Positions 30,390 through 32,925 of a stretch of DNA of 64,000 nt are shown in pieces. Position numbers and translations under genes: made by a program. Every line of letters starts with the position of its first letter. Position 1 is the first letter of the stretch. The notes under the pieces were generated by a model. That model was not told the origin of the DNA. It ran no database searches and saw only the letters and a list, made by a program, of their open reading frames with translations. The stretch covers positions 62,001 to 126,000 of the forward strand of contig JAIOZL010000005.1 of assembly GCA_021740645.1 (NCBI GenBank), written 5' to 3'. This DNA comes from Bacteroidales bacterium (GTDB taxonomy: Bacteria; Bacteroidota; Bacteroidia; Bacteroidales; JAADJA01).

Positions 30390-30426
30390 AAAAAAATCCC
30401 GATCCTTAAAGAATAAAAGACCGGGA
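30390..30426 (-). terminator. Rho-independent terminator of the small exported protein gene
   Basis: On the minus strand the sequence forms an 11-bp stem (TCCCGGTCTTT / AAGGATCGGGA with G-U wobbles) followed by a run of seven T. It lies 22 bp after the stop of the gene at 30449. Confidence 0.8.
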
Positions 30427-30448
30427 CCAAAAACAAGAGGTTATCAAT

Positions 30449-30745
30449 TTACTTTTTATCAGGACTTTCTTTTTTAGTAGTAGTAGTAGTAGTGGTAGTT
30501 TCACTTGTCGTTTTTGTTTCTTTAGTGTCTTTACATTCCTCTTTGCTTCCTAGGTCTGCTTTCTTTGAAGAGCAGCAACTTTTCTTTGAGCCGTACTCAG
30601 CACAGCTTTTCGAACTCTTTTTTGATGCCTTGGGAGGATCATCGTAAACAACTTTGTCTGTATCACCAGCTTTAACTGTATCAATTGTTACAATCCCTGC
30701 GAATAAGAACGCAAATAATCCCAATGCCAAAACGATTTTTTTCAT
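30449..30745 (-). CDS. Small exported Lys/Ser/Cys-rich protein, unknown function
   Basis: A 98-residue protein with a clear N-terminal signal peptide ('KKIVLALGLFAFLFAGIVTID') and a polar mature part rich in Lys, Ser and Thr. Four or more cysteines lie in 'SKSCAEYGSKKSCCSSKK' and 'SKEECKD', which could bind metal or form disulfides; no family recognised. The C-terminal stretch is Thr-rich, encoded by an ACT microsatellite. It is divergent from a two-component system, with a shared repeat-rich intergenic region, so it is a candidate target of that system. It has its own terminator. Confidence 0.8.
   Translation of the reverse strand: MKKIVLALGLFAFLFAGIVTIDTVKAGDTDKVVYDDPPKASKKSSKSCAEYGSKKSCCSSKKADLGSKEECKDTKETKTTSETTTTTTTTKKESPDKK
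30475..30498. repeat. TAG/ACT trinucleotide microsatellite
   Basis: Eight triplets with one interruption (six TAG, TGG, TAG on the plus strand) inside the small exported protein gene, encoding a poly-Thr run in the minus-strand frame. Slippage would change Thr number without shifting the frame. Confidence 0.85.
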
Positions 30746-30787
30746 ACCTTTAATTTTAATATTATTTATTGAAGTTTAAATCTGATG

Positions 30788-30795
30788 CAAACATA
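30788..30795 (-). promoter_or_regulatory. Candidate -7 element for the small exported protein gene
   Basis: Minus-strand TATGTTTG matches TAnnTTTG and lies about 43 bp before the ATG at 30745. No TTG is seen at the -33 position; the TGTTAA repeats begin about 20 bp upstream instead. Confidence 0.45.
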
Positions 30796-30816
30796 ATGAG
30801 TGATTCTTTGTTTTGC

Positions 30817-30854
30817 TGTTAACGACTTGTTAAATCCTGTTAAAAATTTGTTAA
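30817..30854 (+). promoter_or_regulatory. Four helically phased TGTTAA direct repeats, putative response-regulator operator
   Basis: Exact TGTTAA hexamers start at 30817, 30828, 30838 and 30849, giving periods of 11, 10 and 11 bp, about one helical turn. OmpR/PhoP-family regulators bind direct repeats with this period. The array lies between two divergent TAnnTTTG boxes, upstream of the small exported protein gene on one side and a kinase/OmpR-type regulator pair on the other. Confidence 0.6.
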
Positions 30855-30881
30855 ATTATTATCTGAAGAATTTATCACCGG

Positions 30882-30889
30882 TAATTTTG
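30882..30889 (+). promoter_or_regulatory. Candidate -7 element for the histidine kinase gene
   Basis: TAATTTTG matches TAnnTTTG and ends 4 bp before the kinase ATG at 30894, implying a leaderless transcript if used. It lacks a TTG -33 element; the TGTTAA array ends 27 bp upstream. Confidence 0.4.
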
Positions 30890-30893
30890 AGCT

Positions 30894-32174
30894 ATGAACC
30901 GTACTAAAGTTTTTCGCTGGATCATTTTACTCACCTCTGTTTCCCTTGTTGCTGCACTTATTACTCAGTTACTTTGGGTTAGGGATGCCTTAAAATTGAA
31001 AGAAGACCAGTTTAACAGTAAGGTTGAAATAGTGCTGCAAAGTGTGGTAAACCAATTAATGACAGGGGAAAATTTTCCTCCTGCCAATTTTGCTGATTTT
31101 GACTATAACTTTTATAAGGAACATGAACAAATACTTAATGTAGTTGACCCACATACACTCGATTCGTTAATTAAGCAGGAATTTTCGGGAATGCGGATTG
31201 ATAAAAAATATGCTTATGGTGTTTACCGGCAAAACGATAGTAAGTTTGTAATGGGCGATATTGGGGATTTTGAGTCAGAGTTAATCCAATCAGAACACTG
31301 GGTTTCCCTGACCTGTTTGTGTGATGATGAGAGTTATCTCCTGGCTGCTTATTTCCCTGATCAATCCTTCAAAATACTGAGTGATATGATCATTTTGCCC
31401 ATCATGTCAGGCCTGTTTTTAATGGTTTTGGTTTTTAGTTTCTTCTTCACCATTTATTTTCTTATTCAGCAAAAGAAACTTTCGGAAATGAAAACAGACT
31501 TTGTGAATAATATGACCCACGAATTTAAAACCCCTATTGCCACTATTTCAGTATCCAGTGAAATGCTTACAAAGGAGCAGGTGATTAACTCACCTGAAAA
31601 AATCAGAAAGTATGCAAAAGTAATCTTTGATGAAAATACCAGGCTCAAAAACCAGGTAGAACAAGTTTTACAGATAGCCATTTTAGATAAGGAGGACTAC
31701 AAGCTGAAGATGAGGGAGATGGATGCCAGGGAACTTTTAAACGAAAGTATTGATAATTTTAAAATGCAGATTGCAGAGCGCTCAGGTATTCTCAAAACAC
31801 AATTAAATGCAGATAATCATCAAATTATCGTGGATAAGTTTCATTTTCAAAATGTGATTAATAACCTGCTTGATAATGCAAATAAATATTCGATAAATGC
31901 CCCGGAAATCTTAATCATAAGTGAAATTTCAAATCATCATCTTTTAATCCATGTAGAGGACAAGGGAATGGGGATAAGCCGCGAAAACCAAGCCATAGTT
32001 TTTAAAAAGTTTCAAAGATTACAAACAGGAAATATTCATGATATTAAAGGTTTTGGACTGGGGTTGTTTTATGCAAAAACAATTATTGAAAAAATGGGTG
32101 GGAACATAAAAGTTCAGAGTGAACTAAATAAAGGGAGCAGGTTTACGATTTCTTTTCCGCTTGACAAAGATTAA
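30894..32174 (+). CDS. Membrane sensor histidine kinase (HisKA type)
   Basis: 426 residues: TM1 about 8-28, an extracytoplasmic sensor of ~135 residues containing a Cys-x-Cys pair ('LTCLCDDES', residues 141 and 143), TM2 about 163-191, then HisKA with the phospho-acceptor His209 in 'NNMTHEFKTPIATIS'. HATPase_c has 'VINNLLDNANKYS', 'VEDKGMGIS' and 'FGLGLFYAKTI'. This architecture resembles RprX-type Bacteroidota kinases. The OmpR-family regulator begins 34 bp downstream. The intergenic TGTTAA array suggests autoregulation. Confidence 0.94.
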   Translation: MNRTKVFRWIILLTSVSLVAALITQLLWVRDALKLKEDQFNSKVEIVLQSVVNQLMTGENFPPANFADFDYNFYKEHEQILNVVDPHTLDSLIKQEFSGMRIDKKYAYGVYRQNDSKFVMGDIGDFESELIQSEHWVSLTCLCDDESYLLAAYFPDQSFKILSDMIILPIMSGLFLMVLVFSFFFTIYFLIQQKKLSEMKTDFVNNMTHEFKTPIATISVSSEMLTKEQVINSPEKIRKYAKVIFDENTRLKNQVEQVLQIAILDKEDYKLKMREMDARELLNESIDNFKMQIAERSGILKTQLNADNHQIIVDKFHFQNVINNLLDNANKYSINAPEILIISEISNHHLLIHVEDKGMGISRENQAIVFKKFQRLQTGNIHDIKGFGLGLFYAKTIIEKMGGNIKVQSELNKGSRFTISFPLDKD

Positions 32175-32208: not shown

Positions 32209-32925
32209 TTGAAAACTACTACACGACAAAATTCTATTCTACTCGTTGAAGATGATCCCAACCTGAGCATGGTTGTGCAGGATTATCTTGAAATGCTGGA
32301 ATACAAAACTACACTTTGCCGGGATGGTGAAGAGGGCTTTAATAAGTTCAGAAAGAATAAGTATGACCTTATCATCCTCGATGTAATGATGCCTAAAATG
32401 GATGGTTTTAGCCTCGCTGTTGAAATCCGGAAATATGATACCAAAACTCCCATAATATTCCTTACAGCCAAAACTCTTAAAGACGACAGAATCAAAGGTT
32501 TTATGGTAGGTTGTGACGACTATATTTCAAAACCATTCAGTACTGAAGAGCTTAGTATGCGGATTAAAGCCATATTAAAGCGATGCCAAAATAACAATGG
32601 GTTTCAGGAGCCTGAAGATACTGAATTTGAAATAGGAAGCTTTAAATTCGATCATATAAACATGCTCCTAAAACAGGGAGAAACGGTACATAATCTTACC
32701 CGTAAAGAAACTGCCTTATTGAAGCTCTTATGCATTTATCAGGATAAGCTTCTTTCCCGGGAAACTGCTTTGAAGTCTATTTGGGGTGACGATGACTATT
32801 TTATTGGCAGAAGCATGGATGTGTTTATTTCAAAATTGAGAAAATATCTCAGATCTGACCCTAAAATACATATTACAAATATCCATGGTACAGGTTTTAA
32901 ACTAGAGGTAATTGACGAAGAGTAA
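32209..32925 (+). CDS. OmpR/PhoB-family response regulator
   Basis: Receiver domain (pocket in 'SILLVEDDPNLSM', phospho-acceptor Asp in 'DLIILDVMMPKMDGF', Lys in 'DDYISKPFSTEE') followed by a winged-helix DNA-binding domain ('LTRKETALLKLLCIYQDKLL', 'SMDVFISKLRKYL', 'NIHGTGFKL'). The ORF track starts at TTG 32161, inside the kinase gene. A strong AGGAGG at 32198-32203 precedes TTG 32209 by 5 nt, giving MKTTTRQNSILLVEDD, which is the preferred start (238 residues). It is the partner of the kinase upstream. Confidence 0.93.
   Translation: MKTTTRQNSILLVEDDPNLSMVVQDYLEMLEYKTTLCRDGEEGFNKFRKNKYDLIILDVMMPKMDGFSLAVEIRKYDTKTPIIFLTAKTLKDDRIKGFMVGCDDYISKPFSTEELSMRIKAILKRCQNNNGFQEPEDTEFEIGSFKFDHINMLLKQGETVHNLTRKETALLKLLCIYQDKLLSRETALKSIWGDDDYFIGRSMDVFISKLRKYLRSDPKIHITNIHGTGFKLEVIDEE

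Follow-up and report, generated by a model that had tools for sequence, protein, structure and literature searches.

A four-repeat TGTTAA array as the likely operator of an RprY-like two-component system and of a small exported protein in Bacteroidota

The window analyzed here, that is the whole stretch of 64,000 nucleotides, contains a rightward gene pair and a divergent small gene, with four direct repeats of TGTTAA between them. The following features are relevant for this analysis:

30395..30428, minus strand: intrinsic-terminator-like hairpin with a T run, 3′ of the small gene
30449..30745, minus strand: gene for a small exported Cys/Lys-rich protein of 98 aa, without a Pfam or NCBIfam family
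30788..30795, minus strand: leftward sigma-A –7 box TATGTTTG (CAAACATA on the plus strand), predicted start near 30783
30817..30854, plus strand: predicted operator array of four TGTTAA direct repeats starting at 30817, 30828, 30838 and 30849
30882..30889, plus strand: rightward sigma-A –7 box TAATTTTG, predicted start at 30894, the A of the kinase ATG
30894..32174, plus strand: gene for an RprX-like sensor histidine kinase of 426 aa with a CxC motif (SLTCLC) in its predicted periplasmic part
32209..32925, plus strand: gene for an RprY-like response regulator of the OmpR/PhoB family, with a TTG start after AGGAGGT

The kinase contains HisKA and HATPase domains and the adjoining regulator a receiver and a Trans_reg_C domain. 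Based on this domain content, the rightward gene pair is an OmpR/PhoB-family two-component system, which bears out the description of this operon in an earlier note on the same DNA. The regulator aligns over its full length with solved OmpR/PhoB regulators. Its best NCBIfam model is RprY (NF051850) with 290 bits against a cut-off of 370, and a better candidate for RprY (327 bits) is encoded on contig C76 of the same genome, which encodes three other RprY-like regulators. For these two reasons we rejected the name RprY for this protein. RprXY of Bacteroides and Porphyromonas, likewise a Bacteroidota kinase with an OmpR-type regulator, is nevertheless the closest family model. Clear RprX kinases differ in that they comprise ∼490–530 aa and mostly lack an upstream TGTTAA pair, whereas the kinase described here has 426 aa and is preceded by the array. 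The CxC motif of its periplasmic part is present in all members of the genus, and 32 of 46 aligned homologs share one cysteine in this part.

Direct reading of the sequence confirmed four exact TGTTAA hexamers with start-to-start spacings of 11, 10 and 11 bp, at the positions given by the earlier note. It also confirmed that they lie between two outward-facing TAnnTTTG boxes and that neither has a TTG where a –33 element usually lies. In Flavobacterium psychrophilum, the TAnnTTTG box was mapped to –12 to –5 relative to the transcriptional start (PMC9723704), and we applied this rule to both promoters. By this measure, the array extends from about –77 to –40 of the predicted rightward transcript and from about –71 to –34 of the predicted leftward one, so that the previous placement of –35 to –77 for both transcripts is roughly right but its exact limits are not. 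The predicted rightward start coincides with the A of the kinase start codon, and exactly four nucleotides separate the right box from this ATG in most loci of the genus. The kinase mRNA is therefore predicted to be leaderless, both here and in most genus loci. Since both promoters lack a –33 element, they probably require activation.

The hexamer alone is not enriched in the window, where 56 single copies of TGTTAA compare with 66 expected. TGTTAA-N4/5-TGTTAA, on the other hand, occurs three times with 0.02 expected; all three pairs belong to the array, and none of 100 shuffled windows reached this number. The whole genome (5.06 Mb) harbors 27 such pairs compared to 10 in the reversed control. 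A genome search for runs of three or four spaced repeats, as suggested earlier, returned the array locus as the only place with at least three. We also considered a broad regulon in this genome but rejected it, since the other sites combining a box with a repeat pair (on contigs C35, C62, C28 and C57) precede no clear conserved target.

Loss of the repeats in related genomes that share the gene pair was one result that, according to the earlier note, would speak against the proposal, and the comparison strongly favors it. A kinase ortholog with 55–63% identity is present in 13 of 16 genomes of the same genus, and at least four TGTTAA copies are found at the same place in all 13 loci. The spacing is 11/10/11 in ten of them and 11/9/11 in two, while the remaining locus carries five copies. 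In an alignment of ten loci, identity amounts to 100% in the hexamer columns, 79% in the spacers, 59% in the left flank and 53% in the right flank; the repeats are thus retained between diverged flanks. The distances to the promoters are likewise preserved: the left box pattern starts 29 bp from the first repeat in nearly all genus loci, and the start of the last repeat precedes that of the right box by 32–34 bp. Among 60 related genomes, the left-type and right-type patterns of a box plus a repeat pair yielded 36 and 41 matches, counts that include the array locus itself, compared to one match each in the reversed control. At loci with at least three repeats, the adjacent regulator is at least 55% identical in 25 of 25 cases. 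Judged by its sequence conservation, the array thus appears to be a real, precisely conserved switch in many Bacteroidota.

Two further observations concern this set of genomes. In two genomes of the genus, the gene for one and the same large exported protein is preceded by three TGTTAA copies (L157 and L159; G012:C52 and G016:C554); one of these genomes lacks the kinase ortholog. The promoter sequence of locus L039 (JAUVIX010000035.1) equals that of the same-genus locus G004:C247; the Chlorobiota title of this record is probably a misassignment.

We scanned 200 bp upstream of 79 kinase homologs without a divergent small gene for TGTTAA pairs at spacings of 6 to 20 bp. Such pairs were present at 24 loci, with a spacing of 10 bp in 12 and of 11 bp in the other 12, and with no other spacing in this range; anagrams of TGTTAA gave a mean of 0.19 loci in the same scan. 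A spacing of 21 bp, found at ten kinase loci, would fit a middle repeat that has diverged. If these promoters have a TAnnTTTG box, its start usually lies 33 bp past that of the last repeat. These operators fall into three separate parts of the kinase tree (FastTree), in which several forks are weakly supported. The repeats therefore mark the promoters of this kinase family even without the small gene, and the autoregulation suggested by the earlier note is the economical reading.

The small protein also matches its first description as a Cys/Lys-rich exported protein: it has a signal-like N-terminus, a CC motif, ∼24% lysine in its mature part and a PDKK end. No Pfam or NCBIfam family was found for it. 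Weak Pfam conotoxin and knottin matches of the small proteins appear to be driven by composition and were rejected. The gene is present in single copy in 14 genus genomes, including the one studied here. A broader profile, run on 295 genomes of the order, detected the family in 50. The small proteins contain 4–8 cysteines, including CC, within 52–91 mature residues, with higher Cys and His contents in some relatives (L260, CNHEKGKCNHEAGKC; L280, CEKCGKENCDGKC). They appear to form an undescribed family with the 98-aa protein as its founder.

At least two chained copies of TTAACA, which is TGTTAA on the other strand, precede 35 of the 50 small genes examined, and the last copy normally starts 27 bp before a TAnnTTTG box, as in the window. 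This distance is 37–38 bp at genes whose last repeat is degenerate. All 20 small genes divergent from a kinase carry the repeats, compared with 15 of 30 that are not (neighbors were checked by eye, and L265 and L273 counted as divergent). The other half of the unlinked genes, which have fewer than two exact repeats and in some cases degenerate ones, counts against our model. In a control with 225 other genes from the loci retrieved, 8 were preceded by paired repeats, a figure that is biased upward because some loci were chosen for such pairs. Since unlinked small genes keep both the repeats and their geometry, the operator seems to belong to the promoter of the small gene itself and not to that of the kinase alone, in favor of the proposal that this gene is a target. 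That the small protein is the main output of the system, as also suggested previously, is plausible because runs of at least three repeats are nearly confined to the array locus in each genome.

Thirteen of the 15 unlinked repeat-bearing small genes directly follow a gene that we judged by its sequence to be phosphatidylserine decarboxylase-like (psd-like), an identity confirmed with Pfam in L231 and L232. This arrangement of unlinked copies, often together with the operator, is seen in L231, L238 (the same place as L232), L243, L244, L249, L251, L252, L253, L258, L259, L262, L271, L277 and L281. The psd-like neighborhood therefore looks like a second conserved setting of the small gene. In L275 (G047:C1:282700-285500), an unlinked small gene with operator is divergent from a response-regulator gene that by eye looks like PorX.

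Operators of the right type also precede other candidate targets. One is a 249-aa secreted protein of no known family, whose orthologs in four genomes (L170, L177, L180 and L181 in G006, G011, G013 and G002, respectively) are preceded by TGTTAA-N5-TGTTAA with a box spaced as at the right promoter. This protein is a candidate for a further regulon member. Another is an 804-aa protein with a subtilase domain in two genomes. In one genome each, the operator precedes TonB-receptor operons that encode Cys-rich or HMA-domain proteins: a Cys-rich protein with a TonB receptor in L175, and a TonB receptor followed by HMA-domain proteins in L183. The gene content of these two loci hints at metals.

Taken together, we consider it likely that the array is the operator of the adjacent OmpR/PhoB-family regulator and controls both flanking promoters, that is, those of its own operon and of the small gene. 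Direct repeats of about 10–11 bp upstream of a promoter box, as found here, are characteristic of OmpR/PhoB operators, and this model is supported by operators retained at either promoter without the other partner. Because the repeats occur both at kinase-only promoters and at unlinked small genes, the element would represent an operator of the OmpR/PhoB type that belongs to an RprY-like two-component family, whose conserved output is the small protein. Phosphorylated regulator molecules would occupy the array head to tail along a single helical face, one per TGTTAA, and from there act on both sigma-A promoters. The rightward promoter would deliver kinase and regulator, resulting in autoregulation, and the leftward one the small exported protein. 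The signal could be some envelope stress that the small protein relieves.

The lack of –33 elements and the position of the array upstream of both –7 boxes, as in activated promoters, lead us to infer that the regulator activates both promoters. Since all repeats point one way, however, the bound protein would turn a different side to each promoter, and its effect may not have the same sign at both. In addition, RprY of P. gingivalis was proposed as a repressor. Repression of one or both promoters, for example with one activated and the other shut, is thus a possibility that we take seriously but consider unlikely.

It is also conceivable, though distinctly less so, that RprY or another paralog is the main binder of the array, which would then reflect a shared regulon instead of local autoregulation. 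Members of the RprY-like family hardly differ in their recognition helix (consensus [GA]RSMDVF[IV]xKLRKYL), so that paralogs could read the site as well. A clear RprY is encoded in some genomes whose small gene is unlinked, and in G059 the only kinase match at the threshold used is RprX-type. Against this, the four-repeat array is tied to the present kinase-regulator pair within the genus, and pair and small gene have been lost together: the three genomes of the genus without a kinase ortholog are exactly those in which the small gene is missing. Moreover, no TGTTAA pair is found upstream of the three paralogous RprY-like systems of this genome or of most clear RprXY loci examined. The adjacent regulator hence remains the likeliest protein to bind the array, and probably does so.

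The Pho box of E. coli PhoB and the sites of B. subtilis PhoP are tandem 11-bp repeats next to the promoter, and Bacillus PhoP sites consist of TTAACA repeats, a hexamer nearly that of the array, which TGTTAA-N5 direct repeats resemble. The Bacteroidota PhoB model (NF053854) is also the second-best NCBIfam match of the regulator. Nevertheless, it is very improbable that a PhoB-type regulator reads the array as a Pho box: the PhoB score of 183 bits remains below its cut-off of 270 and far below the 290 bits for RprY, the genome yielded no clear PstS, and the operator follows RprX-like kinases and the small gene. PhoB and PhoP control the phosphate regulon, whereas the regulator encoded here is not PhoB-type. 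An origin of the array by chance or low complexity in DNA rich in A+T, for which the abundance of single TGTTAA copies might speak, is contradicted by the shuffled windows, the conservation and the promoter geometry and was rejected as practically negligible.

Operation of the array by the adjacent regulator would be an unusually clear case of a mechanism already known, that of OmpR/PhoB direct-repeat operators. ArcA sites of E. coli contain between two and five direct repeats with an 11-bp period (PMC3798270) and are likewise read by an OmpR/PhoB-family regulator, but they are degenerate and distributed genome-wide, whereas the array has four exact repeats, is nearly unique in each genome and keeps fixed promoter distances. 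P. gingivalis RprY and HaeR are each reported to bind their own promoter (PMC3646045 and PMC3764172, respectively), and the passages searched name no binding motif for either. HaeSR, as described in the latter, resembles the present system in the sizes of kinase (∼50 kDa) and regulator (25 kDa) and in the binding of its own promoter, which is predicted here, and differs in its gene neighbors and its heme-uptake regulon. The papers found on RprXY-type systems report no binding motif, searches with the motif letters gave no match for Bacteroidota, and no description of the operator or of the small-protein family in this phylum was found in the literature searched, outside of which most subscription journals lie.

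Metallothioneins and other Cys-rich metal buffers are also small and Cys-rich. The small protein has a CC motif and its relatives have Cys/His repeats, but it differs in being exported, Lys-rich and without a family match. Buffering of metal or thiols under envelope-stress control is a function that these features weakly suggest. Extending this line, the locus could lie at the core of an undescribed Bacteroidota envelope-stress system in which RprY-like regulators read a TGTTAA code with a period of one helical turn and thereby control exported, metallothionein-like Cys/Lys-rich proteins, while periplasmic cysteines of the kinase sense metal or thiol state and link it to the small protein in a feedback loop. 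We offer this wider picture tentatively and regard it as doubtful.

The array adds a clear example with four sites and two promoters to the direct-repeat operators of the OmpR/PhoB family. An operator with fixed promoter geometry in several groups of Bacteroidota, together with a dedicated small-protein target recognizable even when unlinked, would constitute a testable regulatory code, and this TGTTAA code may provide a way to predict the regulon and to look for the signal.
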